Shown here piece after piece: positions 12,084-37,459 of a stretch of DNA of 64,000 bases (position 1 is its first letter; each line of letters begins with the position of its first letter). The notes beneath the pieces are model-generated. The model made no database searches and was not told the origin of the DNA. It saw nothing but the letters and a program-made list of their open reading frames with translations. The translations under genes were made by a program, and so were the position numbers. Source of the DNA: Endozoicomonas sp. Mp262 (lineage in GTDB: Bacteria; Pseudomonadota; Gammaproteobacteria; Pseudomonadales; Endozoicomonadaceae); NCBI RefSeq assembly GCF_025643335.1, contig NZ_CP092489.1:443501-507500 (forward strand). Reading direction: 5' to 3'.

Positions 12084-12106
12084 AACAGTTCCCTCTGTTT
12101 TTTTAT

Positions 12107-13236: not shown

Positions 13237-13238
13237 GC

Positions 13239-13769: not shown

Positions 13770-13915
13770 GAAATAAAAATAAATTAATAAATGGATGATT
13801 TAATAAGATAAAAAAATAGATTTAGTGAATAAACCCAAGATCATGGAATGAAATTAAAACGCGAATCGGAAAATAAATTCCCCTTAATTTAATAAAAAGG
13901 AAAGGTTTTTCCCTG

Positions 13916-14632: not shown

Positions 14633-14641
14633 CCTAATCAG

Positions 14642-15616: not shown

Positions 15617-16473
15617 TCGCGAGACTCACTCAGCATTTGTTCCATCTCTTCAAAGGTAGGCCGATCTTCACTGAACAGAATTTTTCGACCGGTTTCCACA
15701 GAAACTTCCGGGGGTGTACCACCATGATGACTGGACAGCGCATTTTTAATTAACTCCAGCGCCTTGATCTCCGCGTGAATTGAATGCCCTATGGCTCCAG
15801 CCATAGGGCCAACCACACCATATCCCAGAAATACCCCCATAAAGGTTCCCACCAGAGCTGCCCCGATTTTCATACCCAGCTCTTGAGCTGGTCCCCCCAG
15901 GGAACCCATGGTAATTACGATACCCAATACCGCCGCCATGATTCCGAAACCTGGCAGGGCATCGCCCATACTCGTCAATGCCTCAGCAGAGCGGCTAATT
16001 TCTTTCTCGTAGTTATGCATTTCCTCTTCAATCAAGGCTTCCAGCTCATGGGTATGAATGGAGTCCTCAAGCATCAGACGAAGATTTCCCGTCAGGAATT
16101 CAGTCACTGACTGGGTAGCAAGCACCTTAGGGTATTTGGTAAACAAACTGCTGTGCTCCGGTTTTTCAATATGTTCTTCAAGGGCTTTTTTACCGCCCTG
16201 CTTGCGAGCCATATTGAACAGGGCACAAAGAAGATGCATTAATTCCTCAAAATAAGCCCGGTTAAAACCATTACCGGCAAAAACATATTTTAGATGACGG
16301 AGAATGTTCTTAAGGACTGACCCCGGATTGGCAATAATCACGGCCCCGGTGGCCCCGCCAAAAATAATCAAAATTTCAAAAGGGTGCCAAAGATGAAGCA
16401 TCTGGCCATTGGAGGCAACATAACCCCCGAATATACTGCCTAGTAATACAATGAATCCGATGACGCCGAGCAT
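15613..16473 (-). CDS. motA: MotA, stator protein (lateral LafT-type position)
   Basis: MotA is the membrane stator subunit that pushes on FliG. The protein has 286 residues with four membrane helices, two at the N-terminus (LGVIGFIVLLGSIFGGYVAS) and two after the cytoplasmic loop. Pro in LPGFGIMAAVLGIVITMGSL is part of the conserved helix 3. The loop has the charged residues that contact FliG. The start lies inside fliA, with a 34-bp overlap, so motA is likely read from the fliA message. Confidence 0.95.
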   Translation of the reverse strand: MLGVIGFIVLLGSIFGGYVASNGQMLHLWHPFEILIIFGGATGAVIIANPGSVLKNILRHLKYVFAGNGFNRAYFEELMHLLCALFNMARKQGGKKALEEHIEKPEHSSLFTKYPKVLATQSVTEFLTGNLRLMLEDSIHTHELEALIEEEMHNYEKEISRSAEALTSMGDALPGFGIMAAVLGIVITMGSLGGPAQELGMKIGAALVGTFMGVFLGYGVVGPMAGAIGHSIHAEIKALELIKNALSSHHGGTPPEVSVETGRKILFSEDRPTFEEMEQMLSESRE

Positions 16474-17243
16474 ATCGATTCACCTCCCTTGTCTTGCTTA
16501 TCCTCAGCCAAAATCTCTTTCAGCTGAGACAACGCCTGTCTGTGTAACTGGCAAACCCTTGCTTCAGAGATATCCAGCACCAATGCCACTTCTTTCATAT
16601 TCAACTCATGGTTGTAATAAAGACTCAGCAATAGCTGTTCACGGGCAGAAAGTTCAGTAATGGCTGAAGCAAGCGCCCTGGCGCCTTCTCTTTTAATGGC
16701 TCCCCTTTCCAGGTCACCATTACGACTTAAGAACGCCTCTCGTCCTGTCATCACATCATCAAGGCTAACCAGGTGGGAACTATGGCTATGGGCGTGTATT
16801 TCACCGTACTCCGCAACACTGATTCCCATGCTGTCTGCAATTTCCCGGTCTGTTGGCGCCCGGCCCAAAGAAGACTCCAGCTGCCTTCGAGCCTGGTTTA
16901 TCCTCTGTATATCTTCCCGAAATGCCCGCGGACGCCCATCAGACTGCCTTAGCTCATCAATCATGGCTCCCCGGACACGCAGCATGGCAAACTGTCTGAA
17001 TCCTGCCATTCCCTTGCCATCATAGCGCTGGGCAGCTTCCAGTAGTCCTAAAAGCCCTGCCTGAAAAAGATCGTCCAAAGGTACTCTCGAACCAATCACA
17101 CCCATCAAATGCAGCGCGACCCTTTTAACGATGGGCAAGAAGGTATCAATAAGCTCTTCCGGCTTAAGGTTTTGGGCCTGCTCGTAGACCACAACCCCCG
17201 ATCCAGCCACACTACCCTGAAGATCTTCCTTACTTTTACCCAT
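16440..17243 (-). CDS. fliA: FliA, flagellar sigma-28 factor (lateral LafS-type position)
   Basis: FliA directs transcription of the late genes (filament, motor, flgM). The protein has 267 residues. Region 2 shows RVPLDDLFQAGLLGLLEAAQ and FRQFAMLRVRGAMIDELRQS, region 3 SLGRAPTDREIADSMGIS, and region 4 ELSAREQLLLSLYYNHELNM plus the HTH EVALVLDISEARVCQLHRQA. The gene sits between fliL and motA, the position of lafS in lateral clusters. The Ser-rich C-terminal tail overlaps motA. Confidence 0.95.
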   Translation of the reverse strand: MGKSKEDLQGSVAGSGVVVYEQAQNLKPEELIDTFLPIVKRVALHLMGVIGSRVPLDDLFQAGLLGLLEAAQRYDGKGMAGFRQFAMLRVRGAMIDELRQSDGRPRAFREDIQRINQARRQLESSLGRAPTDREIADSMGISVAEYGEIHAHSHSSHLVSLDDVMTGREAFLSRNGDLERGAIKREGARALASAITELSAREQLLLSLYYNHELNMKEVALVLDISEARVCQLHRQALSQLKEILAEDKQDKGGESICSASSDSLYY

Positions 17244-17272
17244 AGGCCGAAAGCATTTTCCTCACTAGCCCT

Positions 17273-17800
17273 TTATTGAATCACCATATCAGTGATCAAA
17301 ATATCGTCCATTTCTGCGCCAGTTCGCTCTTCATCAAGAAGGGCATTGATTCTTTCCAGTAGCTCTTTTCGAAATACATCGATGGCATCCGGTTTAAGTG
17401 CTTCGTCTACAGAAAAACCACTCAGGTATTTGACAACAGTATTTCGGATCCAGGGTTGGTAGGCATTCAAAACATCCTCAGCCCCTTCCCGCCGGCTCAT
17501 AATGGTCATTTTTATTTGAAGAAAGCGGGATCTTTTTGCCCCTTGCAGACTCAGCACAAAGGGATCAAGTTTGTAGAAATTGGGTTTTGCTGCCAGCGGT
17601 GCCAGTGGTGTAGCTGCCGGAGCTGCCGCCGCTACAGGTGCCGCCGCGGGATCGCCAGGTGCTTCTGACTTTTTGCCCAACATTAAGACAGCAAATACGC
17701 CAACGCCAATTGCCACAAGTAGCACCACAATCAGAATAATGATCAATAACTTGTTTGAGGAGCCTGAGGATTCTTTTTCTTCCTTTTTGTCATTAGCCAT
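17273..17800 (-). CDS. fliL: FliL, basal-body-associated protein
   Basis: FliL forms a ring around the stator and supports motor output. The protein has 175 residues. It has one membrane helix (LLIIILIVVLLVAIGVGVFA), a low-complexity Ala/Pro linker (about 48-70), and the family core KPNFYKLDPFVLSLQG with RFLQIKMTIMSR. It lies between fliK and fliA, as lafF does in lateral systems. Confidence 0.92.
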   Translation of the reverse strand: MANDKKEEKESSGSSNKLLIIILIVVLLVAIGVGVFAVLMLGKKSEAPGDPAAAPVAAAAPAATPLAPLAAKPNFYKLDPFVLSLQGAKRSRFLQIKMTIMSRREGAEDVLNAYQPWIRNTVVKYLSGFSVDEALKPDAIDVFRKELLERINALLDEERTGAEMDDILITDMVIQ

Positions 17801-17915
17801 CAGTGAGTCCCTTTTTGACGATTTTGACCTTAAGATCCTTCGGGTCAGAAATCATAATTAATACAGGATAGCTTTAATCCACTACCCGATTCCTTCTCAT
17901 TGGTATAACCCCGTT

Positions 17916-19256
17916 TTATGCAAACGTATCAAGAAGCCCATAACCACTGGAGCCGCCCTGGGTTTCAGCAAGAGTCTCGGCATCACTGGGGTTATCATCG
18001 ACTTGGCCAGAGGAAACTGAAGATGGCGTGGATGCCAGCTGATATTTAGCACCACTTTGCGAGTCACCACCGGTGGAAACATTGACATTGACGAGGTTTA
18101 ACTCATGGCCTGCCATGGCTGTACGCAATCGATCTACCTGTTGGAGAATCAGATCCTTTACCGCAGTGCCTGAGGCATGAAATTGCACACTCACCTGGTC
18201 ACCGTCAACACTCAAGGCTATCTGTAATCGTCCCAGCTCTGGTGGATCAAGCCTGATTTGTGCCAGTCGTTGCTCTTTATTCACCAACCATGCCAGCCGC
18301 TCTCCCATAGACGACGGAAAGGACTGAAAATCCTTTAGCTTCATATCCATGGTTGATGGCATGGAAAATTTCTCTGGCTGTCGCTCTGTTATGGGGTTTA
18401 AAGGTCTGCTTTCTTCCAGGATTCCGGTGTCAATCTGGGCCGAATAAGAAACCGGCTTATCCCCTGCCAGCTCCTTTACCTGGTTTAAGTTAGGATGTTG
18501 CTCAATCACTGAAAACTGTCGCTTCGACAACGATTCAGTCAGCAGGGTTTCATAGTGACCGGTGGGCTTTTCCCTGACAGCCAGGCCAGGCAGCTTAAGG
18601 TCATGATCTGTGTTTTTGGCTTCATCTACCTTCGGGTTAAGCGCAAACTCCACACTGACCTGGTTAGTCGCCTTTGAGGATTCCGCTGATGGCTGAGATT
18701 CTGTGGTTACCGGCGATGCTACCAGCCTTGCCGATAAGGTTCGAAGCTCAACAGGTATGACCTGTTCATCAGGCAAGACTGTATTCACCTCGCCCATGCC
18801 CATATTCACCGCTGAATCGGCAGATGTTGTCATAACCGGAGCAAGCCATTGTTTCTTTATTCTGTCAGTGACCACTGTGCTTGTAGGGTGAACATCAACA
18901 ATATCCGGGAGTAATGGATCAACAGTGTTGCTTTTCACTTCTGGCAAGGCCACTTCTACAGGCTGTAAAGAATGATCCTCCAAAATATCTGGCGATAAAT
19001 TCCGGGGAATTTCATAGGATAACCCTGGCTTGAGAACGTCTTCAGGCGCTGACACCAGCTGCTGGAAAATATCCGGAAAATATAATGGATCGTAAGCTCC
19101 AGGCTGGCTGCCAGCGTCAGACCGAGAGGCAAGCATAACCGGAAATTGGGAAGGGGGTTGCCGGGTGCTGTCAGCTGCATCCGCTGCCGGAAGCCCGGAG
19201 GATGGCAAAGTACCTGTCAGTAACGACGATAAATCCAGTGCCTGTGAAACTTCCAT
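17916..19256 (-). CDS. fliK: FliK, hook-length control protein
   Basis: FliK measures hook length and switches the export specificity of FlhB. The protein has 446 residues. About residues 1-310 are Ser/Thr/Pro-rich and poorly conserved. The C-terminal Flg_hook domain (about 315-400) contains LAQIRLDPPELGRLQIALS and VSVQFHASGTAVKDLILQQV. The Gln/Ser/Gly-rich tail is typical. Its start touches the fliT stop, which suggests coupling. Confidence 0.93.
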   Translation of the reverse strand: MEVSQALDLSSLLTGTLPSSGLPAADAADSTRQPPSQFPVMLASRSDAGSQPGAYDPLYFPDIFQQLVSAPEDVLKPGLSYEIPRNLSPDILEDHSLQPVEVALPEVKSNTVDPLLPDIVDVHPTSTVVTDRIKKQWLAPVMTTSADSAVNMGMGEVNTVLPDEQVIPVELRTLSARLVASPVTTESQPSAESSKATNQVSVEFALNPKVDEAKNTDHDLKLPGLAVREKPTGHYETLLTESLSKRQFSVIEQHPNLNQVKELAGDKPVSYSAQIDTGILEESRPLNPITERQPEKFSMPSTMDMKLKDFQSFPSSMGERLAWLVNKEQRLAQIRLDPPELGRLQIALSVDGDQVSVQFHASGTAVKDLILQQVDRLRTAMAGHELNLVNVNVSTGGDSQSGAKYQLASTPSSVSSGQVDDNPSDAETLAETQGGSSGYGLLDTFA

Positions 19257-19573
19257 TATCGGTTACTCTCATAACTGTTAATGGCATGCTGCCGCTTTCT
19301 CAGCACAACCAGTTGATCCAACGCCTGCTTTTTTTCCTGGTTACACGACTCGGTGACTCTGTTAATAGCCGCCTGAAGGTCCTTCAGGATTCCCATTAAT
19401 TTACCATCCAGCTCTGGCGATACCCCTTCGGTTTCTTTAAGCGTATTTATTAACCCGGGTTCAATCCGTGACAGGGTTTTCCAGTCAGAATGATAACTGG
19501 CCCGATCAATGGCCTCCAGTAAAGACTCCAGCCGATCGCTTAATGATTTTTCTTCCGGGCTGTCATTCTTCAT
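19256..19573 (-). CDS. fliT: FliT-like flagellar chaperone (LafD position)
   Basis: FliT-type proteins are small helical chaperones for the filament cap FliD. This protein has 105 residues from the ATG at 19573; a GTG three codons earlier is also possible. It consists of predicted helices (LSDRLESLLEAIDRAS; KLMGILKDLQAAINRVTES). Sequence similarity to FliT is weak. The assignment rests on size and on the position between fliS and fliK, which is lafD in lateral clusters. It overlaps the fliS stop. Confidence 0.6.
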   Translation of the reverse strand: MKNDSPEEKSLSDRLESLLEAIDRASYHSDWKTLSRIEPGLINTLKETEGVSPELDGKLMGILKDLQAAINRVTESCNQEKKQALDQLVVLRKRQHAINSYESNR

Positions 19574-20015
19574 CGCTATCACTGGCCTGTTCAGGACCTA
19601 TCACTTCCACAAGGGCCTTATCAGAATGATTGTTATTCGATGTAATGGTATCCCATGCACTTTTTATTTCTGACATCAGGGCCACCACTTCATTAAGCTT
19701 TTCCACACTATTATCCGAGTTAGCCTGAATCAGAACCTGCATGGAATAGTGATAAAGGCCACTTAAGTTTTTAGCCATTTCACCACCCGCTTCCATATCG
19801 ATGGAACCATCCAGAACCACTATAATATCCAGCGCCTTTCCCAAAACCCTGGCCTTATCTTCCGGCTGCTTCCGCTCAATAAATCCCCGGGCCTGATAAA
19901 GATTCTTCATTAATGCATCAAACAACAGCTTGACCAGCTGCTCCGGAGATGCAATTTCTGCGGTTACCCTGCTTTGAACCTGCTGATAAGCGGAGAGCCC
20001 GGCTTGATTACTCAT
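19563..20015 (-). CDS. fliS: FliS, flagellin-specific export chaperone
   Basis: FliS binds the C-terminus of flagellin and prevents its early polymerisation. The family signature AYQQVQSRVTAEIASPEQLV and KLLFDALMKNLYQARGFIER is clear. The ATG at 20015 is preferred over a GTG one codon earlier. The protein has 150 residues, with an acidic C-terminal tail beyond the usual core of about 130. It would normally follow fliD, but fliD now lies 15 kb away in inverted orientation. Confidence 0.93.
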   Translation of the reverse strand: MSNQAGLSAYQQVQSRVTAEIASPEQLVKLLFDALMKNLYQARGFIERKQPEDKARVLGKALDIIVVLDGSIDMEAGGEMAKNLSGLYHYSMQVLIQANSDNSVEKLNEVVALMSEIKSAWDTITSNNNHSDKALVEVIGPEQASDSDEE

Positions 20016-20065
20016 CACTAAATAACCCTGTATAAGCGTGGAAATACTTTTTCACTAACAGCCAT

Positions 20066-24600: not shown

Positions 24601-25329
24601 TCAACCAAAGCTTGAGGCAAGGGTACTCATGGTCAGGGCCCAGCCATCAACCAGAACAAATAGCATCAGCTTGAAGGGAAGCGAGATCATTTGGGGGGAG
24701 AGCATAATCATACCCATTGCCATCAGAACACTGGCAATAACCAGGTCTATAACCAGAAACGGGATATAAATAATAAAACCGATTTGAAAGGCCGTCTTTA
24801 ATTCACTGGTAATAAAAGCAGGAATTAAAACCGAAAAAGGCACTTGTTCCACAGGAACACTCTCCTGCTCAGCAATTCGCATAAACATGGCCAGATCCGT
24901 TTCCCTTGTCTGGTTGAGCATAAAGTTTTTAATGGGTTCGGAACCCACTTTCAAGGCATCCATTAAAGGCAACTGCTCATTCAGATAGGGCGTCACTGCC
25001 TGCTGGTATATCTGACCAAATAATGGTGACATGATCATCAGGGTGACCGCCAGGGTAATACCAATCAAGACCTGGTTCGGCGGTGTCTGCTGAAGCCCCA
25101 TGGCTTGTCTTAAAATGGCCAGAACAATGATTATCCGGGTAAAACTGGTCAACATCAGTAACGCTGCCGGGATAAAGCTCATGGCCGTCATCAGCAGCAT
25201 TATCTGCAGGCTGGCGCTATACTGCTGTCCATCTCCAGAGTCTTTGACGGTAAAAAGGGGAATGCTGTCAGGTGCTGCCAATGCCAGCGAAGGAATGACT
25301 CCCAGAATCAGCACGATTAACCAGCGCAC
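24601..25329 (-). CDS. fliP: FliP, flagellar export gate protein
   Basis: FliP is the main pore subunit of the flagellar type III export gate. The protein has 242 residues with a cleavable signal peptide ([15 protein letters not shown]) and four membrane helices. Family parts are [20 protein letters not shown] and [20 protein letters not shown], with [11 protein letters not shown] near the end. It follows fliN after 39 bp. No fliO lies between them, and fliQ-fliR are 7 kb upstream, not downstream. Confidence 0.96.
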
Positions 25330-25368
25330 TCTGTTCCTCCTTTACAGACCACAATCTTTACCGGACTA

Positions 25369-25734
25369 TCAGGACACATTTTTAATCCACTCGGATTTGT
25401 GGACAACATCCAGCAACCGGATACCGTAGCGATCATCAACCACAACCACCTCGGCATAGGCAATCAGGGTGCCATTAACTTTGACATCCAATGGGTCAGA
25501 CGCGTCTTTTTCCAGTTCAACAATGGAGCCTTTATTCAGCCTCAATAGCTCCCCAATACTGATTTTTGTACTGCCAAGCTCCAGAGATAAAGTCACCGGA
25601 ATGTCCAGGATCAACCCCAGGTCAGGACTCTGGTCATCACCTCCAGCACCTTCTCCTGTTGCCGGAGTTTCATTACTATCCGCAGCTTCTGTAGCTACAT
25701 CTTCGTTATTGGTATTTTGTTCTTCTTCGCTCAT
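25369..25734 (-). CDS. fliN: FliN, flagellar switch protein
   Basis: FliN is part of the C ring and helps dock export cargo. The protein has 121 residues, with an acidic N-terminal extension (EEEQNTNNEDVATEAADSNE) and the SpoA domain: LILDIPVTLSLELGSTKISI, GELLRLNKGSIVELEKDASD and GTLIAYAEVVVVDDRYGIRL. The start overlaps the fliM stop by 4 bp. Confidence 0.95.
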   Translation of the reverse strand: MSEEEQNTNNEDVATEAADSNETPATGEGAGGDDQSPDLGLILDIPVTLSLELGSTKISIGELLRLNKGSIVELEKDASDPLDVKVNGTLIAYAEVVVVDDRYGIRLLDVVHKSEWIKNVS

Positions 25735-26714
25735 TCTGAACCCTCACCATCCCTAGCCATATTATTCTGATTCATATTGCAATAAACCTTCAGCGCCAAT
25801 ACCCCTCCTTTTTCACAGACACTTACTTGAAGGCATGGAATGCCTCCCACACTGACATCGATGGATTCAGGCATATCCGCCAGAATAATATCTCCGGTTT
25901 CCAGCTTCAGCACCTGCTCAAGGGACATTTGTAAATGGCAAAGCCTGGCATTAAGCTCCACCTTTGCGCCCTTTACATTACCCCAAAGTGTATTTCGCCA
26001 GGCGGAATCCTGGTTACTGGACTGAAAGGCATGGAGTTGCTCTCTCACCGGCACCAGCGCCTTATAGGGCAGTACAATATGAAACTCCCCTTCCCGATCC
26101 AGCATTTTGATGCGCATACGCGCCACCAGAATTAACTCCGAGCTGGATATAAAAACCCTGGATACAGGGTTCGAGTGATAATCCGGCAGGCTACCTTCAA
26201 AAGGTATAATCATTTCCCAGGTGGAGCACATATGCTCCAGGGCCATTTTCAGGCAGCGGCGAACCATTCTCATTTCTGCCGGGGTCATATCACGACCCTC
26301 TTCTATATCAACCTGGCCACTGCCGCCAAAAAAAAGATCCACCATGGATACAATCAGTGGAATATCCATGGCAAAGAAGCCGGAAAAATTCAGGGTGCTT
26401 TCATTAAAAAGGTGTTCCAGAAGCTTATTCTCTCTGGGTTCAGCCTCATAATCACCGTATTTAAGGGAGCTGACCTTATCAAAATGAATTTCGACATCAT
26501 GGTGTAAGAAGTTGTAGATACTGGCCTGAAAGCCACTGCTGAACCGGTGAAAAATCAGCTCCAGGATAGGCACCAGGTCATGGATTTTTTCACCGGGATT
26601 GGTGATATCCAGTGTTTTTACCTTGGCATCAGCGGCCTCACTCACTGCTTTTTGAGTGTTCTTCCTTGCCGCCTCCATCAGGCTGATGGCGTCGTCCATC
26701 ACTGATTCTTTCAC
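25731..26714 (-). CDS. fliM: FliM, flagellar switch protein
   Basis: FliM joins FliG and FliN in the C ring. The protein has 327 residues. The start is a GTG at 26714 with GGAGG close before it. An ATG five codons later has no such site. The core contains DIPLIVSMVDLFFGG and the middle CheC-like domain, and the C-terminal SpoA part has LETGDIILADMPESIDVSVG. The usual N-terminal CheY-binding motif (LSQxEIDALL) is not evident: the N-terminus reads DDAISLMEAARKNT. This suggests weak or absent chemotactic switching, as in lateral flagella. Confidence 0.93.
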   Translation of the reverse strand: MKESVMDDAISLMEAARKNTQKAVSEAADAKVKTLDITNPGEKIHDLVPILELIFHRFSSGFQASIYNFLHHDVEIHFDKVSSLKYGDYEAEPRENKLLEHLFNESTLNFSGFFAMDIPLIVSMVDLFFGGSGQVDIEEGRDMTPAEMRMVRRCLKMALEHMCSTWEMIIPFEGSLPDYHSNPVSRVFISSSELILVARMRIKMLDREGEFHIVLPYKALVPVREQLHAFQSSNQDSAWRNTLWGNVKGAKVELNARLCHLQMSLEQVLKLETGDIILADMPESIDVSVGGIPCLQVSVCEKGGVLALKVYCNMNQNNMARDGEGSE

Positions 26715-26827
26715 ACAGCCTCCTGCTTGTGTGGAGCGAACAAAATAAGGGCTGATTTTTGACTATACGGCTTGCTGCCACCTATTTTCAATAGTTTCAC
26801 CGCCTTATTTCCATTTAGCCAGCCTCT

Positions 26828-26933
26828 CTCGTTCCCGGCGTCCCCCGCCGGGAATGCATACGAGCACCTCAAACTAGTCCCAGACTCACGGCCTGGGGAG
26901 GTATGCATTCCCAGGCAGGAGCCTGGGAACGAG
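26828..26933. repeat. 106-bp palindromic repeat made of two hairpins
   Basis: The left half contains TTCCCGGCG-TCCCC-CGCCGGGAA and the right half TTCCCAGGC-AGGA-GCCTGGGAA. The outer ends CTCGTTCCC and GGGAACGAG also pair, with GCATAC and GTATGC inside. This is the look of a REP/MITE-like non-coding element. It sits between flhA and fliM, at one seam of the permuted gene order. Confidence 0.75.
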
Positions 26934-26961
26934 TCCACGATCGGCTAAGTCCGACAGGCTG

Positions 26962-29076
26962 CTAGCCTACCTTCCCAACAATAGTGACATCTTTATTTTC
27001 AGGCACCTCATTAAACGACAGTACATGAAGCCCCTGGGTACATAGCCGGGCGTATCGGGATAACATGGGCCTCAACTGCTGGGCCACCAGCATAATGGCT
27101 GCCTTTCCCTCAGCCTGTAACTGTTGATTAACCTCGGGCAAGTGCCGCTGTAACTGTTCTGCCACCCCGGGTTCCAAAGGCAAGCTATCCGGTGAAAACT
27201 GGCCGCCTTGCTGGGCCTGCTGCCAGGCCTGCATCATCAGCTGTTCCAGTTTTTCATCCAGGGTGACTACCGACATTTCCTGCTCATTGCCAATAAGATC
27301 GCCAACAATCGCCCGTTTTAACGCCACCCGCACCTCCCCTGCCAGCAACTGGGGATGGCTGTGCCGTTCAGTGGCCTCAAGCAGGGTACTGGCAATGGTT
27401 TTAAAATCCTTAATGGATATATTTTCAAGCAGAAGTTCCCTGAGAACCCGCATCACCTGACTGATCGACAGTTTCTTGGGCACCAGCTCTTCCGCCAGCC
27501 TTGATGACTGCTGGGCCAGCTTGTCGATCAGTTGCTGGACCTCATCATGACCCAAAAGCTCATGGGCACTTTCCGAAATCACCTTACCAAGATGGGTCGC
27601 CACCACAGTGGCGGGGTCAACCACGGTATACCCCAGAGAAATGGCATTATCCTCCAGGTCTTCTTTAATCCAGATGGCATCTAACCCATAGGCAGGATCT
27701 GTGGTGGGCAACCCTTCAAGCTCACCAAAGACTTCACCGGGGTTAATGGCCAGCATATGATCCGGCTCCAGCTCCCCTTCTGCGGCTTCAACCCCCATCA
27801 GGTATATTTTGTAGCCACTGGGCTTTAACCCCAGGTTATCCCTTATATGGACACTGGGAATCAAGAACCCCAGCTTGGTGGACATACTTTTGCGAATACC
27901 CTTAATCTGGGACAGGAGCTTGCCATTCTGCTTTTCGTTCACCAGTGGAATCAGGCGGTAGCCTAATTCCAGTCCCAGGGAATCCACCCCGGGTACATCA
28001 TCCCAGGTGAGGGGATCAGCTTTCTTATTATCCTTTTCCTGCTCCTCCGGAGCCTCTTCCCCTCCCTCAACAACAGCCTGCTGCCGACGCTGATAGGACC
28101 ACCAGGCCAGCATTCCTACGCAACCACCAAGAGTCAGAAACGCCAGGTGGGGCATACCCGGAACAATGCCCATAATAATGATGGTGACAGCTGTCACACC
28201 CAACGCTTTCGGAGAAGAAAACATCTGGTCTGCAATCTGGTTGCCCACATCAGCGGACTCGGAAACCCGGGTTACCATCATGGCAGCGGCGGTGGAAATC
28301 AGTAATGAAGGAATCTGGGCCACCAGGCCATCCCCGATGGTGAGCAAGGCATAGATTGAAAAGGCAGAAGAAAAATCCAGGTCATGGATGATAATGCCAA
28401 TACAGAGACCACCAATAATATTAATAGCCAGAATCAACAAACCGGCAATGGCATCGCCCCGCACAAACTTACCGGCACCATCCATGGAACCATAAAAGTC
28501 CGCCTCCCGCCGAACAATCTCCCGGCGTTCATGGGCTTCATTCTGGTCGATCATTCCGGCATTCAAATCGGCATCAATAGCCATCTGTTTTCCGGGCAAG
28601 GCATCCAGGGTAAAACGGGCAGATACTTCGGAAATACGACCGGCACCTTTGGTGACAACAATAAAATTAATAATCACCAAAATGGAAAAAACCACCAGGC
28701 CAACTACATAATTACCGCCAATCACCACCTCGCCAAAGGCCTGGATCACTTTACCGGCAGCATCACTGCCTTCATGCCCCTTCAGGAGAACCACCCGGGT
28801 AGACGCCACGTTCAATGCCAGGCGCATCAATGTAGTAACCAGAAGGATGGTAGGAAACACGGCAAAATCGAGAGGGCGAAGGGTATAGACCCCCACCAGT
28901 AACACCAGCAGGGACAGGGCAATATTAAAGGTAAATAGCATATCCAGCAGTAAAGGTGGGACTGGCAGGGTTACCATTCCCATAATGACCAATACAATCA
29001 GCGGTATGCCAATGTAGCCGCTCCCGGCTTTAAACAAATTGCCCAGATTCAGCGTTTCAGGAGGTTCCTTTTCCAT
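26962..29076 (-). CDS. flhA: FlhA, flagellar export gate protein
   Basis: FlhA forms the cytoplasmic nonameric ring and membrane part of the export gate. The protein has 704 residues, the standard length. About residues 20-320 hold eight membrane helices, with the FHIPEP-family stretch LRPLDFAVFPTILLVTTLMR and LNVASTRVVLLKGHEG. AKFVRGDAIAGLLILAINII and IGDGLVAQIPSLLISTAAAM follow. The C-terminal cytoplasmic domain (about 350-704) binds chaperone-cargo complexes. It is separated from flhB by an unrelated gene. Confidence 0.97.
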   Translation of the reverse strand: MEKEPPETLNLGNLFKAGSGYIGIPLIVLVIMGMVTLPVPPLLLDMLFTFNIALSLLVLLVGVYTLRPLDFAVFPTILLVTTLMRLALNVASTRVVLLKGHEGSDAAGKVIQAFGEVVIGGNYVVGLVVFSILVIINFIVVTKGAGRISEVSARFTLDALPGKQMAIDADLNAGMIDQNEAHERREIVRREADFYGSMDGAGKFVRGDAIAGLLILAINIIGGLCIGIIIHDLDFSSAFSIYALLTIGDGLVAQIPSLLISTAAAMMVTRVSESADVGNQIADQMFSSPKALGVTAVTIIIMGIVPGMPHLAFLTLGGCVGMLAWWSYQRRQQAVVEGGEEAPEEQEKDNKKADPLTWDDVPGVDSLGLELGYRLIPLVNEKQNGKLLSQIKGIRKSMSTKLGFLIPSVHIRDNLGLKPSGYKIYLMGVEAAEGELEPDHMLAINPGEVFGELEGLPTTDPAYGLDAIWIKEDLEDNAISLGYTVVDPATVVATHLGKVISESAHELLGHDEVQQLIDKLAQQSSRLAEELVPKKLSISQVMRVLRELLLENISIKDFKTIASTLLEATERHSHPQLLAGEVRVALKRAIVGDLIGNEQEMSVVTLDEKLEQLMMQAWQQAQQGGQFSPDSLPLEPGVAEQLQRHLPEVNQQLQAEGKAAIMLVAQQLRPMLSRYARLCTQGLHVLSFNEVPENKDVTIVGKVG

Positions 29077-29234
29077 AGAAGCGCAAGGTCAGAAATTTCA
29101 GCCCAGATGACTACAAGGTATCAGCCTTCCCGCTATTGTGCCAATTTTTATCCACAGACCAGGAGCCTGTTAGCCATAAAAATTGAGTCCCTTTCTATTG
29201 CCGGATACATTGAAAGTACCCCTGAGGATTTAAT

Positions 29235-30050
29235 TTAAGATTCAATAGTTAAATATGGGAAGTGGTAGTCTTTCAGCTCTTGATATAATAACCACAAATT
29301 TTGAGAATATCCTTCACTGACTGTAAATGGTAGCTGACCGGAAAGGACATGGTTTAGTAACACCATTAAAGGGTTAATATGAATCTTATTAAAACCCCAC
29401 ATTGATTTCAGGTCTGCAATATCATCAAAATCCGGAATAACAGTACTTTTCAAAACTTGCTCAAAATGATGAGATAAAGATAGTGACATTAGTGTGCCAT
29501 CTACAACTTCAGAGGTTGCAATATCACATATAAAATTTAAAACATCTCTTGGTATTTTTGAATTATGAGGATTTTCTTCATTAGCGTGAAAGCTTCTTAA
29601 CATAAACCTGACTGCCTTACTTTGAGGTTTTTGTTCTAAATATTTAGGAAATTCATCATATTCTCTAATAAGCTTTTCCTTTTCTCTTTCTTGCTCTATA
29701 TCATCTGGTAGGCCTTTAACTTTTATATCCTTTGCTTTAAATTCACTATCAATCCAGGCTTGATGTCTGGCATGATTTATTAAATCTCTAACCAAGTGAC
29801 ACATTATATCACGATCAATACCTTCTACTTTAGAACCCATACCTTTAGCTTTGCTTATTACTTCTGACCATAGCAGCTTAAAATAATCCTTATTCTCATC
29901 TAGCCTTTGCCATGCCCTATATCCTTCTAATGCTTTTAGTTCATCACAAACATCTTTGATCTTTAACTCTGCATATGACTTTAAGCTAAAGACACATAAA
30001 ATAACAAATGAGGGAAATAAGCCAACTTTACGCTTTTGAAAAGAAACCAT
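29235..30050 (-). CDS. Exported protein of unknown function between flhB and flhA
   Basis: The 271-residue product starts with a basic N-terminus and a hydrophobic stretch (VGLFPSFVILCVFSLKSYA), so it is probably exported. The rest is mostly helical and charged (KGLPDDIEQEREKEKLIREY). No domain is recognised. Its DNA is clearly more AT-rich than the flagellar genes on either side. About 150 bp of AT-rich non-coding DNA lies on each side, so it looks like an insertion into the flhB-flhA junction. A role in flagella is not indicated. Confidence 0.65.
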   Translation of the reverse strand: MVSFQKRKVGLFPSFVILCVFSLKSYAELKIKDVCDELKALEGYRAWQRLDENKDYFKLLWSEVISKAKGMGSKVEGIDRDIMCHLVRDLINHARHQAWIDSEFKAKDIKVKGLPDDIEQEREKEKLIREYDEFPKYLEQKPQSKAVRFMLRSFHANEENPHNSKIPRDVLNFICDIATSEVVDGTLMSLSLSHHFEQVLKSTVIPDFDDIADLKSMWGFNKIHINPLMVLLNHVLSGQLPFTVSEGYSQNLWLLYQELKDYHFPYLTIES

Positions 30051-30204
30051 TTTTATCTCATATAACTACAAAGTCAATCAAGAAAGGATGGTATAGAAGG
30101 TGACTTATTTCAAATACAAATGTCGTACTATTTTTTTTCAAAAAGATCAATCACCAAAAAAAACGACAAAAGTTTAATATTTTACAGATATACCAGCTAG
30201 AAAA

Positions 30205-31338
30205 TTACCGCTGGAATTTTTCAGGAATTTCAGGCGTGGCAGGCTTTTCAGGATAATGACTTCTACCTGCCTTGAATTCATTAAGTTGATGCACATAAGC
30301 CAGCACCTGGGCTACGGCCACATAAAGTTCGGTAGCCACCTCCTGATTAATTTTGGTGGAATAATACACTGCCCGGGTCAGGGCCGGTGATTGAAGAATG
30401 GGCAGGTTATGAGCCCGGGCTATTTCACAAATCTTCAGCGCGGTCTGTTCTGTCCCCTTGGCCACCACAAAGGGTGCCTTGGCCCGATCAAGGTCATATT
30501 TAAGGGCCACAGCAAAATGAGTGGGGTTAGTGATAATAACATCTGAATCCGGGACACCATCCATCATCCGCTGATTGGCCAGTTCTTTCTGAAGCTCCCG
30601 CAACCGTGATTTAACCTCCGGGTTCCCCTCGGTCTCTTTCATCTCATCCTTAACTTCCTGGCGAGTCATCTTAAGTTTTTGCCGATGGTCCCAGCTCTGG
30701 AAAGGCACATCGATTAAGCTCACCACAACCAAGGCACCGCCCAGGCTAAGTACGGCAATACTCAGTATGGTCAGGCTGTCTGAAACCGCTGACTTCAAAG
30801 GCAGGCGACTAAGGGATAACACCTCCTTATAGAAGTAACTAATGGCCAGAATCATGATGCCTGCTATCAGAACAACCTTGAGAACGGATTTCAGCAATTC
30901 AATCAGGGTTTTGGCTGAAAACATCCGTTTCAGCCCTTTAATCAAGCTGACCCTTTCCGCTTTGGGAAGTAACGGTTCCCCCGTAATAACCCACCCCCCC
31001 AGGGCCAGTGAGGAAAGAATAATAGCCAGCAGGATAAAACTGAAAAAAGGGATCAGTGCCAGGAACCCTTCAGATACGCTATTGGCGAGATAGCCCGCCA
31101 TTATGGATTCATCCAGCAGCATCTCCCTTGGCGCAGAAAAAGCTGCACGGGCAACCTGGCTGAACCTGTTGGCCATATAAGAACCTGTCAGGATCAGTGC
31201 CAACCCGCCACCCAGCAACATAACCACCGTGACCAGCTCCCTCGATCTTGGCAACTGGCCCTTACGACGGGCATCTCGCAGGCGCTTCTCTGTGGGTTCT
31301 TCTGTTTTTTCCTGACCTTGCTGATTATTTTCTGCCAT
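30205..31338 (-). CDS. flhB: FlhB, export gate specificity switch
   Basis: FlhB controls the change from rod-hook to filament export by self-cleavage. The protein has 377 residues: an N-terminal membrane part with four helices and a C-terminal domain with the cleavage motif NPTH in SDVIITNPTHFAVALKYD. The N-terminal tail EKTEEPTEKRLRDARRKGQL is a strong family signature. The start overlaps the fliR stop (ATGA). Confidence 0.97.
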   Translation of the reverse strand: MAENNQQGQEKTEEPTEKRLRDARRKGQLPRSRELVTVVMLLGGGLALILTGSYMANRFSQVARAAFSAPREMLLDESIMAGYLANSVSEGFLALIPFFSFILLAIILSSLALGGWVITGEPLLPKAERVSLIKGLKRMFSAKTLIELLKSVLKVVLIAGIMILAISYFYKEVLSLSRLPLKSAVSDSLTILSIAVLSLGGALVVVSLIDVPFQSWDHRQKLKMTRQEVKDEMKETEGNPEVKSRLRELQKELANQRMMDGVPDSDVIITNPTHFAVALKYDLDRAKAPFVVAKGTEQTALKICEIARAHNLPILQSPALTRAVYYSTKINQEVATELYVAVAQVLAYVHQLNEFKAGRSHYPEKPATPEIPEKFQR

Positions 31339-32114
31339 CAGCGCCTCCAGAACATGTTTAGTAGCTGCAAGACTTCATCGGTCAGTTCAATAAACAAACT
31401 TGAGGCCCCTATAAAACTCAGCATCAGTCCTAACAAGCCACAAAGCATGGCCATGGGAAAACCCAGTGAAAACAGATTCAGCTGGGGTGCTGCACGATTC
31501 ATCACACCAAAGGTCAGGTTAACCACCAGCATCGCTGTTACTGCCGGTAAAGAAACCAGTAGCGCCCCGGAAAAAACCCAACTGCCCAGCTTGCCCAGCT
31601 CCACCAGCATATCATCCAGCTTTGTTACCCCGCCCACCGGCATAAAATCAAAGCTTGCCAGCAGGAGATCAATAACCACCAAATGACCGTTAATAGCAAG
31701 GAACAGGAGAAAGGAGGCCAGCTGATAAAACTGACCAATGATAGGAATACTGATGCCATTCACAGGGTCCACCATTTCTGCCATGGCCAAGCCCATCTGG
31801 GTTGAAACCACCTGGCCAGCGCTGGTGAAAATAGCCATAAATATATGGAGTAAAAGGGCACCACTAAAGCCTACAGCCAGCTCATGAAGGGTAATCATCA
31901 ATGCCTGGGCGGAAAAGGGCTCCACCGCAGGCACATCCGGCACCAGGGGAGCCATAAGAAAAGCGATAGCCAGTGCCAGAACTAAACGAACCCTTGGCGA
32001 GACGGCCGCTGCGCCAATTAGAGGCATAAACATGAACAGGGAGCTGATACGGAAAAAAGGCCACAGAAATTGCCCGATCCAGGCCGTGATTTCTGCGGTT
32101 GTCACCGTGATCAT
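31338..32114 (-). CDS. fliR: FliR, flagellar export gate protein
   Basis: FliR is a pore subunit of the export gate. I start it at the ATG at 32114 (MITVTTAEITAWIGQFLWPF), which overlaps the fliQ stop as TAATGA-type coupling. An upstream frame of 23 codons lies within fliQ and is unlikely. The 258-residue protein has six predicted membrane helices. QMGLAMAEMVDPVNGISIPI is conserved in the family. Confidence 0.94.
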   Translation of the reverse strand: MITVTTAEITAWIGQFLWPFFRISSLFMFMPLIGAAAVSPRVRLVLALAIAFLMAPLVPDVPAVEPFSAQALMITLHELAVGFSGALLLHIFMAIFTSAGQVVSTQMGLAMAEMVDPVNGISIPIIGQFYQLASFLLFLAINGHLVVIDLLLASFDFMPVGGVTKLDDMLVELGKLGSWVFSGALLVSLPAVTAMLVVNLTFGVMNRAAPQLNLFSLGFPMAMLCGLLGLMLSFIGASSLFIELTDEVLQLLNMFWRR

Positions 32115-32383
32115 TAATAGATCAGCTCCGGGATGGCTCCATAAAGACGGGTGAACAGTTCCATCAGCTCCCGGATAAACCAATGACCATTAAGGCCGAT
32201 AACCAGAAGAGTCACCAACAAACGAGGGAGAAAACTCAGGGTCTGTTCATTAATTTGTGTGGCTGCCTGGAAAACACTCACCACCAAGCCCACCAGCATT
32301 CCCGGCAAAATAATGACGGACACCAGCTGGATGATAACCAGCAGCGCCTGTCGAAGCAGATCCACAACGATTTCAGGTGCCAT
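32114..32383 (-). CDS. fliQ: FliQ, flagellar export gate protein
   Basis: FliQ is the small two-helix subunit of the gate. The protein has 89 residues and the family pattern VIILPGMLVGLVVSVFQAAT followed by QINEQTLSFLPRLLVTLLVI. It is the first gene of the run fliQ-fliR-flhB, with fliP missing from its usual place directly upstream. Confidence 0.96.
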   Translation of the reverse strand: MAPEIVVDLLRQALLVIIQLVSVIILPGMLVGLVVSVFQAATQINEQTLSFLPRLLVTLLVIGLNGHWFIRELMELFTRLYGAIPELIY

Positions 32384-32699: not shown

Positions 32700-33872
32700 A
32701 TGGCACTCACAGTAAATACTAACGTTGCCTCTATTAATGCCCAGAGGAATATGATGACAACCCAGTCAGGCCTGCAAACGGCCATGACCCGTTTGTCTTC
32801 AGGCTTGCGTATCAACAGCGCCAAGGATGATGCCGCTGGTTTACAGATATCCAACCGTCTGAACTCCCAGATTAAAGGGCTTGGGGTTGCGATCCGAAAT
32901 GCTAACGACGGTGTGTCTCTGGCCCAAACAGCAGAAGGTGCGATGCAGGAAGTCACCAATATTCTGCAGCGTATTCGTGAGCTGGCACTACAGTCTGCTA
33001 ACGGTTCTAACGACGCTGCGGACCGTACCGCACTACAGGCAGAAGTCACAGAGATGCGGGATGAAGTCACTCGTATCGCCAACACCACAACCTACGGTAC
33101 CAAGAACCTGCTGGATGGCTCTAACACCAGTCTGTCATTCCAGGTAGGTGCCTATGCCAACCAGACAGTAAGCATGAACCTGTCTGACCTGCGAGCCACT
33201 TCTCTGGGCACCACCACAGGTAAGTCCATGGACTTGAGTGCTGCCGGATATAACAACACGGTCGTCGGCGCTGCCGCGGAAACACTGACCTTTGCGATAA
33301 CCAACGATACAGGCACACACACAGTTGACGTGGCTGTAGCCCTGGGTGATGGCTTCGATACCGTTACCGATAACGTAAACGCAGCCCTGAACCAGTACGG
33401 CGTTTATGCAGAGATCAGCGGTGGTGATATTAAAATGGTGGCTGAAAACGAAGTGACTCAGGTGGATGCCAACAGTAGTATTGCTGGTGACGCCGGTATT
33501 TTTAACTCAGCCGCCACCACTATTACCCTGGGAGCTGCCGACTCTGACAACATTGGTGGTGCGCTCAGTACCATTACCGTCAGCACCCAGTCTGGTGCAC
33601 AGGACTCCATAGCCATCATTGACCAGGCCATAGCATCCATTGACTCCCAGCGTTCCACCCTCGGTGCGATCCAGAACCGTCTGACCTCAACCATCAATAA
33701 CCTCTCGAACGTACGTGAGAGTGTATCTGCTTCCCGAAGCCGTATCATTGATGCCGACTTCGCAGCAGAAACAGCCAGCCTCACCAAGTTCCAGATCCTG
33801 CAGCAATCCGGTGTTGCTATCCTGAGTCAGGCTAACACTAGCCCTCAGATCGCACTGTCCCTGCTGTCATAA
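32700..33872 (+). CDS. fliC: Flagellin, filament subunit
   Basis: This is the filament protein, exported through the flagellar gate. It has 390 residues. The N-terminal D0/D1 region is standard ([40 protein letters not shown]), and so is the C-terminus ([40 protein letters not shown]). The variable D2/D3 part covers about residues 175-290 and is rich in Thr and Asp. A strong terminator follows. Only one flagellin gene is present here. In the lateral layout it corresponds to lafA. Confidence 0.97.
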
Positions 33873-33977: not shown

Positions 33978-35333
33978 ATGTTTTCAATAAGTGGTGTCAA
34001 TAGCGGTCTTGATGTCAATGCCTTGGTGGATGCCATTGTTGCAGCAGAACGGGCACCGGTAGAAAACAGGCTCCAGCGTGCGGAACAGGACTATACCGTC
34101 GAACTTTCAGCATTGGGACAGCTTCAGGGCGCCATCAATGGGTTTTCCACGGCTGTGGATAACCTCAACCAAAGCGACACCTTTGACACTCGAAAGACCA
34201 GTGTTACCGATAGCAGTGTTTTTACGGCTACCGCCACCAGCAGCGCCGCTTTTGGCAGCTATAGAATACGGGTGGATCAGCTGGCCAGTAACCATTCCAT
34301 TGCTACGGCCGCTTTTTCTGATACCGACACATTCGGTACAGGAAATCTGGTACTCGACCTTGGCAGCGATAGCATGACCCTTGCCCTGGACAGCAATAAT
34401 AATACGCTTTCCGGCATTCGGGATGCCATTAATGCCGCTTCCGATAATCCCGGCATCAATGCAACCCTCTTAAACGACGGCGGCAATACCCGCCTGCTAT
34501 TAACCAGTGAAAAAACCGGTTTAGCCAATACCATTACCCTGGATACCGCTGGACTTACCCTGGGAGGCGGAGACAGTGATATCGGGACTGGCACCGTTGA
34601 GCTGAACGCTGCACAGGATGCCACAGTGGTGGTGGGTGAAGGGGCTGGCCAGCTAACCATCACTCATTCAGATAACAGTATTGAAGACCTGATAGAAGGG
34701 GTGACAATCAATCTGCAATCGGTGAATGCCAACTTCCAGACCATTACCATCGCAGAAGATATCAATGCCACCAAAACCAAAATCGAAAGCTTTGTCTCTG
34801 CCTATAATTCACTGATCAGCGATATCAATGCCCTCACTCTTTATCAGGAAGGGGTAGACCCGGGAGCCCTGATCGGTGATGCCACGGTTCGATCCATACA
34901 AAGCCAGCTCCGAAATGCCATAGGCAGTACCTATTCAGCGGGAAATATCAGCATACTATCTGACTTCGGCATCACTACCAGTGAAACCGACGGAACCTTG
35001 TCCATTGACTCAGCCACCCTGAACACCACCATTACCGATAATTACGACAATCTATCGACATTTTTTACCGGCAGTAACGCCATGGCCGGAACAATGGCCG
35101 GTATCCTTGATACTTATGATTCCTCCACAGGCGTCATCAAAACCCGAATGTCCTCCCTTGAAACCAGAATCCGCGACCTGGAAGACGATAAGGCGGATCT
35201 GGATATCAGGATTGCAAACCAGCGTTATTACTGGGAACAACAATTCCTCGCCATGGAAACACTGGTGGGACAATACAACTCAGCAGGCCAATATCTCAGC
35301 AGCATTCTGACTAACAATAATAGAAATAACTAA
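33978..35333 (+). CDS. fliD: FliD, filament cap protein (HAP2)
   Basis: FliD caps the filament and guides flagellin insertion. The protein has 451 residues. The N-terminus (SGVNSGLDVNALVDAIVAAE) and the C-terminal half (YNSLISDINALTLYQEG; LSSLETRIRDLEDDKADLD) fit FliD. GGAGAGG precedes the ATG. The stop overlaps by 4 bp the end of the convergent HsdM/S-like gene. In lateral systems fliD (lafB) is followed by fliS, which here lies in the opposite orientation at 20015. Confidence 0.95.
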   Translation: MFSISGVNSGLDVNALVDAIVAAERAPVENRLQRAEQDYTVELSALGQLQGAINGFSTAVDNLNQSDTFDTRKTSVTDSSVFTATATSSAAFGSYRIRVDQLASNHSIATAAFSDTDTFGTGNLVLDLGSDSMTLALDSNNNTLSGIRDAINAASDNPGINATLLNDGGNTRLLLTSEKTGLANTITLDTAGLTLGGGDSDIGTGTVELNAAQDATVVVGEGAGQLTITHSDNSIEDLIEGVTINLQSVNANFQTITIAEDINATKTKIESFVSAYNSLISDINALTLYQEGVDPGALIGDATVRSIQSQLRNAIGSTYSAGNISILSDFGITTSETDGTLSIDSATLNTTITDNYDNLSTFFTGSNAMAGTMAGILDTYDSSTGVIKTRMSSLETRIRDLEDDKADLDIRIANQRYYWEQQFLAMETLVGQYNSAGQYLSSILTNNNRNN

Positions 35334-37120
35334 AGAGACCAGACTTCCGAGTTAATCCCCTTGGCCTTATCCCTCAAAAAACGAATCTCTGCGTAAGCTT
35401 TTTTAATATCCTGATGGGTTCTTTGAACCTGCCGTTGCTGCTCTTCCGTCATCACCGGAACCGGTAAACGCTGAATATCCGTGGTTTGTAACAAGGGTAC
35501 CTTTCCCGTGCACTCTATTCGATCAAGCAACGCCTGGCCTACCGGCGAGCATAAATAACGAAACAGGACAACAGGGTCCTTCACCGGCCCTCCGTCTTTC
35601 AGGCGAATAATAATAAAAGCCTGACTGGCAACCCAGTTACTGCCACAGATTGACGAGACCAGCCCGACTTTTCCCACCTGTCCCTTCACTACCAGAAGAA
35701 TATCTCCTGGCTTTAAACGTTGTTGTCTCGCTCTTTCACACCCTCTGTTCACCGTTATCATTTTTCCCGGACTTTCCACCTCCCCCGCTTCATTGAAATC
35801 CACAGGCATCGCTTCCAGCAACAACACACCTTGCTGGCCTTCTGGCGTAATTGACTTGAGAGCCTGGGCCCGGGTTAAATGGGCAATATCAGACAATGGC
35901 ATTGAAGGCGTATCATCAATAACTCGCTGTAATTTCACCTGTTGATTGGACAGGACATAACGGGATACCTGCAAATTATATTGATTCGCCTCTATATCCG
36001 AACAGGGTATCTGACGGGCAAATTTAATGCTTTGTGCCTCACCGGCCTGTTCAATGAGTGTCTCAATATTTCTTAGCTGAAAGGCCTTACCCCTCTGTGA
36101 GTTTCTTCCCAGCTGGCGTTTAATAAAATACTCATTGGTGCCATCAATAAAGTTAATACTGCCGTATTCTCTGCTTTTATCAATAACCAGCAAAGCCATT
36201 GGTGGAATAGAAGACTGGCTAAACAACGCTGGCAACGCAATAACCGCCTTAATACATTTTTTTTCCAACAGACTTTTTTTACCTAACCGTTCATTCCCTG
36301 TTGTTCGTTGCAAAAATGACTGCGGTATAGCAATAACCGCTTTTTGACACTGGGCAATGATGTGATTGATGTGCAGTAAATCACCATAATGGCTGGCTAC
36401 TGAAAAGCGGCCGTACAGATCATTCAACTCGTCTTTTTGATAACGGGCATCCAGTGGCGGGAAAGCCAGACCCACATTAAAAGACTTCAAATGTCCGGGT
36501 TCCGTCCATGAAGGATTTGTTATGGGATTTCCCTGCACGGTTTTTAAAGCACCACTTCTCAGAATATTACAGATAATGGGTAAAATTGAGACCAATTCCA
36601 ACTCAATATAAATGCTGGGGCTTTTTTCGGCGGCAGCCAGCGCCAGGGAAAATGAACTATTAAAAGGACAATAAACACTATCCTCCCTCTTAGAGCCAGC
36701 CAACCCAATCATTAATTCAATCAGGTCATCAGGAACACTGACCGGGTGATATTTAGTCCCAACCAGAAGATCCATAAAGACCTGGGGCAGATCCTGATAG
36801 TTTAATAGTTGCTGCTGATGGGCTGTGACCAATGTGGTAACCAGTCTAGCCAGCTCATCTTCAGGAATGACCTTAAGTTCCGCTGCGTCCAAAGCAAAGG
36901 CAGGAGCATATGACTGGCCACAATGGGCGGAGATGCCTTGAAAGAAAGCGTTTATTTCATCAACACTCTTTGGCACATCAAAATCAAGCTCCTCTTTTTT
37001 CATTTGGTTATACAAAAACAACCCGGCAATCAGTTGCCCGGATAAAACCACATACCGATGGAACCAGGGCTTACCCTGCTTGCCGGAAGTGATCAGATTA
37101 TTGATTATTTCTCGACCCAT
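35330..37120 (-). CDS. Fused HsdM/HsdS-like protein with degenerate methylase motifs
   Basis: The 596-residue protein has the layout of a type I N6-adenine methylase joined to a single HsdS-type target recognition domain. The methylase-like part spans about 1-350. Its expected SAM motif region reads VYCPFNSSFSLALAAA, without the usual D-x-A-C-G-S-G. Its catalytic motif reads FNVGLAFPPLDARY, with FPPL in place of NPP(F/Y). Both key motifs are thus altered and activity is doubtful. About 400-570 resembles HsdS: RARQQRLKPGDILLVVKGQV, then a helical tail (EEQQRQVQRTHQDIKKAY). No HsdR gene is near. It may be a sequence-specific DNA-binding protein. GGAG precedes the ATG. Confidence 0.6.
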   Translation of the reverse strand: MGREIINNLITSGKQGKPWFHRYVVLSGQLIAGLFLYNQMKKEELDFDVPKSVDEINAFFQGISAHCGQSYAPAFALDAAELKVIPEDELARLVTTLVTAHQQQLLNYQDLPQVFMDLLVGTKYHPVSVPDDLIELMIGLAGSKREDSVYCPFNSSFSLALAAAEKSPSIYIELELVSILPIICNILRSGALKTVQGNPITNPSWTEPGHLKSFNVGLAFPPLDARYQKDELNDLYGRFSVASHYGDLLHINHIIAQCQKAVIAIPQSFLQRTTGNERLGKKSLLEKKCIKAVIALPALFSQSSIPPMALLVIDKSREYGSINFIDGTNEYFIKRQLGRNSQRGKAFQLRNIETLIEQAGEAQSIKFARQIPCSDIEANQYNLQVSRYVLSNQQVKLQRVIDDTPSMPLSDIAHLTRAQALKSITPEGQQGVLLLEAMPVDFNEAGEVESPGKMITVNRGCERARQQRLKPGDILLVVKGQVGKVGLVSSICGSNWVASQAFIIIRLKDGGPVKDPVVLFRYLCSPVGQALLDRIECTGKVPLLQTTDIQRLPVPVMTEEQQRQVQRTHQDIKKAYAEIRFLRDKAKGINSEVWSL

Positions 37121-37459
37121 AAGCCCGCTCCGATGCGTATTAATCCCTTCCCTGAAAAAACTGATCAGTCATTCCAGGCTATTTTGACAGCTGATTAAAC
37201 TAATTAGAACAGCATCATGATTTTCTGACAATAACTAGACAAATCAGAACAGGCTAAGTAAAATCAGAGGATGATTATTTTATTTATATCCTGATTAAGG
37301 TCATCAAGGAAAAATTTATGTTATTCATCATAAATTAAAATAATCAAAAGAATTATAAACCACCAAAAAACGACAAAAAGCAGGTTTTAGATACAGGCAA
37401 ATAAAAAATTACCTTAAAAAAATCATACTAACCCAAAACAAACAATAAGGACTCTTCCT
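37121..37459. other. AT-rich intergenic region upstream of the OmpW gene
   Basis: No reading frame is supported in these 339 bp. The right part would hold the promoter of the porin gene, but no clear -35/-10 pair stands out in the AT-rich sequence. Confidence 0.5.

Follow-up and report, generated by a model that had tools for sequence, protein, structure and literature searches.

Controller (C) proteins of type II restriction-modification systems are small helix-turn-helix proteins that exert autogenous control over their operons via operator sites. Type I restriction operons have a repressor of their own in RptR, a small four-helix protein that binds TAGCTA (PMC12255303). The HsdM and HsdS subunits of type I systems also occur as M-S or M-half-S fusions, natural or engineered (7eew of Vibrio vulnificus; CC398-1, PMC6158711). 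Engineered M-half-S fusions form dimers that remain active and recognise palindromes, and a likeness between half-HsdS dimers and the regulator BmrR has been pointed out (PMC6158711). Here we describe a gene, called X below, that has the same domain order and folds as these fusions and for whose family we found no published description in the open-access literature. It lies in a stretch of 64,000 nucleotides (the window) from Endozoicomonas sp. Mp262, contig NZ_CP092489.1, with the following features:

35330..37120, minus strand: CDS of X, a degenerate HsdM-half-HsdS fusion of 596 aa with an ATG start and 15 full-length orthologues
35942..37120, minus strand: pseudo-methyltransferase part of X, residues 1-393, with an HsdM fold (AlphaFold2; structure match to 7vru_A)
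35333..35938, minus strand: single HsdS-type recognition domain and C-terminal dimerisation helix, residues 395-596 (match to 8vsq_A; best-conserved part)
36650..36670, minus strand: degenerate motif I, CPFNSSF (residues 151-157) for DPxxGSG (profile alignment to solved HsdM)
36452..36463, minus strand: degenerate motif IV, FPPL (residues 220-223) for NPP(F/Y) (profile alignment to solved HsdM)

A Pfam scan placed N6_Mtase on residues 193-393 of X (E 1e-18) and found no helix-turn-helix domain in the protein, and weak NCBIfam and PDB matches pointed to HsdM and, for the C-terminal part, to HsdS-type proteins. The AlphaFold2 model, built from 17 aligned sequences, predicted the fold with good confidence (mean pLDDT 85, pTM 0.79). 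Its residues 1-393 had the HsdM fold of type I methyltransferases, with a match to the HsdM chain 7vru_A (VIA; Z 32.5, rmsd 2.7 over 377 residues) and further matches to the type I M subunits 2okc_A (Z 31.6) and 3lkd_A (Z 30.9). Residues 395-596 matched the half-HsdS 8vsq_A Esub1 (Z 19.5, rmsd 2.6 over 191) and include a long C-terminal helix at residues 559-595. The M-S chain 7eew_A spanned residues 3-596 at an rmsd of 23.5, so that the domains in the X model are placed unlike those in 7eew_A. As modelled, X joins a single M domain to a single recognition domain and a C-terminal helix; it has the single recognition domain (395-596) and predicted dimerisation helix of a half-HsdS, and not the two recognition domains per chain of HsdS. 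The original prediction of an HsdM/HsdS fusion was thus right about the HsdM fold and the recognition domain, the S part being half an HsdS and not a full one. It had also noted that the recognition domain seemed intact, which the sequence bears out.

In the profile alignment with solved HsdM proteins, VYCPFNSSFS (residues 149-158) stood opposite motif I of 7vru_A (VYDPACGTGG), and AFPPL (residues 219-223) stood opposite ANPPF. This confirmed the register of the replaced SAM motif I and NPP(F/Y), which had been called from X alone, without misalignment. The comparison of motifs I and IV in homologues that had been proposed as a check gave the same answer, since both were absent from 16/16 orthologues. 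Their replacements differ by clade (LSGDGAF and LPNANSF; ALLPI and GVLLH), and both motifs were intact in seven HsdM genes scanned alike with a regular expression. X therefore lacks SAM motif I and the catalytic NPP(F/Y) that define a type I methyltransferase. Could it nevertheless be an active methyltransferase with unusual motifs, which marks DNA near the flagellar genes as an epigenetic switch? The intact predicted HsdM fold and the Pfam N6_Mtase match would suit such an enzyme, but we find this scarcely credible, because the Asn of NPP(F/Y) is gone in all 16 orthologues, the glycines of motif I are gone too, and positions 151-157 and 220-223 vary by clade, as expected without catalysis.

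Full-length X was present in 16 of 37 Endozoicomonadaceae genomes, the named carriers including Endozoicomonas, Parendozoicomonas, Kistimonas and Sansalvadorimonas. These loci came from an alignment-based contig search; a single-protein query returned none. When more genomes of the family were sought as an additional test set, no new carriers turned up, and viral contigs contained no X. Among 767 genomes from class and phylum samples, only the window's own genome and one partial match were recovered at the strict threshold of 1e-40, which suggests that at this strictness the X family is rare and scattered in those samples. The surroundings of X in the window are flagellar:

33978..35333, plus strand: fliD (filament cap), tail to tail with X (sequence, synteny)
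32700..33872, plus strand: fliC (flagellin) (sequence, synteny)
24601..32183, minus strand: fliP, fliN, fliM, flhA, flhB, fliR block of the flagellar cluster (FliP, FliN, FliM and FHIPEP by Pfam; flhB and fliR by sequence and synteny)
1964..20018, no single strand given: rest of the flagellar island, with motY, flgN, flgM, flgL-flgB, flgA, motB, motA, fliA, fliL, fliK, fliT and fliS (MotY, FlgN, FlgM, MotB, MotA, FliA and FlgA by Pfam; others by sequence and synteny)

Flagellar genes neighbour X in 14/14 carriers with a long enough contig (in two carriers the contig stops just upstream of X), and they do so in three arrangements. X follows fliP in G007, G009, G014 and G015, follows flgA and faces fliP in nine genomes, and stands beside fliD in the window, where the two genes overlap tail to tail by 4 bp. 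The fliP proteins linked to X are 69-75% identical to that of the window, as against 47-61% for the fliP-like proteins of other family systems compared. Three carriers (G009, G015, G020) have a second flagellar-type locus, and X occurs only by the first kind; G002, of the same genus, has a fliP of 68% identity and no X. The remark in the original prediction that no restriction gene is near was borne out, as neither hsdR nor hsdM occurs around X within the window (type I loci lie elsewhere in the genome), and no hsdM, hsdS or hsdR adjoins X in the flagellar clade. The flagellar linkage of X is a conserved family trait and not a chance neighbourhood.

Several other observations concern this island and its surroundings. 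The order fliS-fliT-fliK-fliL-fliA-motA-motB is one that we take to be reminiscent of lateral flagellar clusters. The fliE-fliI genes of this flagellar system lie ~15-20 kb before the window (G000:C1, ~423-430 kb; L097, L098), adjoined by an NtrC-family activator of the FlbD/FleR kind and a PelF-like glycosyltransferase. Between flhA and flhB, a 271-aa ORF (29235-30050) has a signal-like start and no Pfam match. Insertion elements abound in the right half of the window, where two transposase-like ORFs that share their length (466 aa) and N-terminus (38392-39792 and 45653-47053) are accompanied by several more IS-like ORFs at 38-58 kb. At 63005-64000, three consecutive short ORFs share near-identical stretches (MLAWHGR..NTK..CQQPLNLKNSILP) in a tandem repeat of ~378 bp that runs off the window. 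We also considered X as a stand-in for a missing LafK/FlhDC master regulator and rejected this: FlhC is indeed absent, but a FleQ-like gene is present and the NtrC-family activator sits beside fliE.

X is under purifying selection, with dN/dS values of 0.05-0.20 in nine orthologue pairs (0.006-0.20 for the recognition domain) by a quick Nei-Gojobori count. Within the flagellar clade, mean identity was 52% in the recognition domain versus 33-38% in the pseudo-methyltransferase part. Since X is present in 16/37 genomes and degenerate in all of them, with dN/dS of 0.05-0.2 and flagellar linkage in 14/14, its degenerate state is, as judged from sequence, old and selected. Relatives of X in two type I operons (L075 and L079) allowed a comparison with genuine type I subunits: HsdR was 88%, HsdM 82% and the true HsdS 42% identical between the two, versus 78% for the X recognition domain, which means that this domain does not track changing restriction-modification specificity. 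This conservation pattern, as read from the alignments, is the reverse of that of diversifying HsdS genes. It bears on the idea that X is a lone specificity subunit which, by drawing on an HsdM of the host in trans, alters methylation specificity, its flagellar location being inherited and not functional. Its fold and single recognition domain would suit an S-like partner, hsdM genes exist elsewhere in the genome, and type I-linked relatives directly adjoin hsdM. We nevertheless regard this as quite improbable, as the pseudo-M domain of X itself sits at the docking place of a partner HsdM, all 14 carriers with contigs that show its surroundings have X in a flagellar island and none has it next to hsdM, conservation and not diversification marks the recognition domain, and the palindrome before X, described below, would be left unexplained.

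To find candidate binding sites, we counted all split palindromes before flagellar-island genes. One of them, AATCA-N5-TGATT, occurred upstream of X as an exact match in 14/16 genomes and with at most one mismatch in 16/16; in random segments drawn from these loci, no five-base pattern was shared by more than three genomes. Found in nine genomes, the motif was then exact in five of the seven others (shuffle p 0.0005-0.002 each); this split was set after a first look at all 16, and the nine alone gave the same top motif. The half-sites were separated by N5 in 14 genomes and by any other spacing in at most two. One-mismatch copies numbered 38 in 41 kb of intergenic versus 36 in 503 kb of coding DNA, and in aligned X promoters the sites formed conserved islands amid divergence. 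The copies in the window are:

37262..37276, unstranded: predicted operator AATCAGAGGATGATT (AATCA-N5-TGATT), exact match, ~150 bp upstream of the X start
37281..37297, minus strand: second, degenerate operator-like site TAATCAGGATATAAATA, 2 mismatches, 20 bp upstream of the first
13786..13800, unstranded: one-mismatch copy between the divergent genes flgB and flgA; chance alone predicts 3.8 matches of this kind per window

The first of these lies between X and a divergent ompW-family gene; the near-match at 13786 may be due to chance. X thus has a conserved candidate operator in its own promoter region, as would be looked for in a regulator. A promoter scan gave two promoter-like sites versus 4.9 expected from shuffles and terminator-like signals at about shuffle level, and a weak -10-like hexamer stands beside the candidate operator.

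The site is often doubled. Within the g6/g7 subclade, seven of nine genomes had a pair of exact copies spaced by 39 bp; in G013 and G020 the pair had the same spacing, with one copy exact and the other off by a single mismatch. G009 and G014 had no exact site and two degenerate copies, also 39 bp apart, and a further copy 20 bp away was found in G007 and the window. All nine subclade genomes also had the motif ending at the fliD start codon (TAATCAGAGGCTGATTATG; one with a GGGGC spacer). At fliD or any flagellar promoter of the window's genome no exact motif was found; only the X/ompW intergenic site is exact in this species, and a direct flagellar target there is putative. Counted genome-wide, AATCA-N5-TGATT had 15 sites in the window's genome. 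The exact 12-base form TAATCA-N5-TGATTA had 34 sites across the 16 genomes, 18 of them at X or fliD; the remaining 16 were about as many as the X-less background (15 in a comparable quantity of sequence), and the majority of the inspected ones were intragenic. Exact-site counts across the 16 genomes thus gave no wider regulon, the density outside X and fliD equalling that in X-less relatives.

These counts also speak to the possibility that the palindrome serves a different regulator as operator, or acts as an RNA element, and in that way controls X and fliD, X having some other role in the flagellar island. At fliD the ribosome-binding site is exactly enclosed by the palindrome (TAATCAGAGGCTGATTATG), so that an RNA hairpin is possible there. 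We consider this reading unlikely all the same, because the motif follows X through three gene contexts, because its count outside X and fliD is background and the same with and without X, unlike that of a general regulator, and because the spacer varies among X sites, unlike an RNA-binding loop.

Taken together, we think it probable that X is a dead type I enzyme turned into an autoregulated DNA-binding regulator of its flagellar locus. As a pseudoenzyme, X would neither bind SAM normally nor methylate adenine, and would have kept the recognition domain and dimerisation helix. Pairing of two chains via their C-terminal helices would let them recognise a split DNA sequence with inverted halves; a split palindrome is indeed the target expected if X dimerises with one recognition domain per chain. 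The best candidate target is TAATCA-N5-TGATTA, whose 10-base core precedes X in all 16 genomes (exactly in 14, with one mismatch in two). We infer that X binds its own promoter region and thereby governs its own expression, probably by repression, and that paired sites 39 bp (or 20 bp) apart could allow cooperative binding. In the nine-genome subclade X would also cover the start of fliD and so restrain expression of this filament-cap gene, and in the window's species it may act on its own promoter, on ompW or on near-matches such as flgB-flgA at 13786. The earlier suggestion of a sequence-specific DNA binder, perhaps a regulator, gains from the lost motifs, the best-conserved reader, and the palindrome at its own promoter and, in nine genomes, at fliD; its other half, an anti-restriction factor, does not share in this support.

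Relatives outside the family mostly adjoin type I hsd genes. They include copies in Kushneria, Salinicola, Rheinheimera, UBA5122 and three further genomes, and plasmid copies of Aromatoleum, Sulfuricurvum, Oscillatoria, Roseovarius, Roseomonas, Salimicrobium and Lactococcus; several other plasmid relatives had no hsd genes in the stretch seen. The X homologue is mostly the first gene, as in X-hsdM-hsdS-hsdR. These distant relatives are homologous to X over the full length and likewise lack NPP(F/Y), with one possible exception (Salimicrobium L124, in which the motif IV Asn is retained as NFPF). As distant relatives in type I operons are already degenerate, degeneration was not an event of the window's species. 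The Lactococcus and Salimicrobium copies retain part of motif I and may be less degenerate. The flagellar-linked copies formed one clade (support 98/92) in a tree whose root is not fixed, and with that reservation the flagellar location looks derived. Such surroundings would fit an anti-restriction or anti-phage factor carried by chance with the flagellar island, since relatives occur in type I restriction operons and on plasmids. We judge this very improbable, as X in this family has no surrounding hsd genes and is strictly tied to one flagellar system, and the PADLOC matches of X were to type I M, type I S and MADS S models only. The anti-restriction guess of the original prediction accordingly found no support, with no dedicated anti-restriction PADLOC model matched.

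A palindrome was also seen before some type I-linked homologues. TAGTAT-N5-ATACTA occurred upstream of the X homologue in Rheinheimera (with 16-bp arms), in its relative L079 and twice in Lactococcus (L118, L125), that is, at only four loci in two lineages. Within 500 bp it was the sole palindrome of its kind common to L075 and L079, its own overlap aside. The copies lie upstream of 8344 in L075 and ~50 and 190 bp upstream in L118 and L125, in the forms AACTACTAATTAGTAT-N5-ATACTAATTAGTAGTT and TTAGTAT-N5-ATACTAA, in two unrelated lineages. N5 palindromes were not generally enriched at 21 type I-linked loci (5 vs 2.7 expected; 39/300 shuffles as high), and an operator reading of the shared palindrome is suggestive only. 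Extra first genes in type I operons were noted at L075:8344-20188, L118:7452-17206, L116:5506-15173 and L114:7587-14495; they are degenerate M/S fusions under the label 'subunit M/S' or 'N-6 DNA methylase', occur in proteobacteria and as far afield as Lactococcus, and are a candidate for an undescribed fourth component of type I operons. The Kushneria pseudo-M/S type I operon has a macro-domain gene two genes away (L072:6987-8120), and the window's genome itself has type I loci at three separate places (L080, L081, L082), which carry hsdM and hsdR-like genes. It is conceivable, though we hold it only tentatively, that X belongs to a regulator family derived from type I enzymes, with a dead scaffold and a split-palindrome reader, that ancestrally governed type I operons (candidate operator TAGTAT-N5-ATACTA) and of which one branch was captured for flagella in marine symbionts.

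Type I recognition domains constitute a large supply of split-site DNA readers, and a dead enzyme whose reader became a dedicated regulator would, if true, be a route from defence to gene control. The X family offers a directly testable DNA site. It would, if the proposal holds, also give a handle on flagellar control in Endozoicomonas, a genus in which E. marisrubri is reported to turn down its flagellar export and assembly genes when it meets coral tissue extract (PMC9296628). By extension, a first gene of a type I operon that carries the label 'N-6 DNA methylase' or 'subunit M/S' may encode a regulator and not an enzyme.

Compared with the systems introduced at the outset, X would share with C proteins the autogenous control via operators, although C proteins are helix-turn-helix proteins and X has no such domain by Pfam. 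The type I-linked relatives of X resemble RptR by analogy, in being mostly the first gene of the operon, a putative homodimer and, at some loci, associated with palindromes in their own promoter; RptR is not homologous to X, being a small four-helix protein as opposed to 596 aa with an HsdM/HsdS fold. With M-half-S fusions X has in common one recognition domain per chain, from which a dimer with a split palindromic target is expected. M-S and M-half-S fusions are, however, active methyltransferases, whereas X has neither the SAM nor the NPP(F/Y) motif and no hsdR or hsdM nearby. The 'subunit M/S' and 'N-6 DNA methylase' genes on plasmids of Sulfuricurvum, Oscillatoria, Lactococcus and Aromatoleum and on chromosomes of Kushneria and Rheinheimera are full-length homologues of X in which the canonical motif IV is already gone; these genes accompany hsdM-hsdS-hsdR, whereas X of the Endozoicomonadaceae resides in flagellar islands free of hsd genes.
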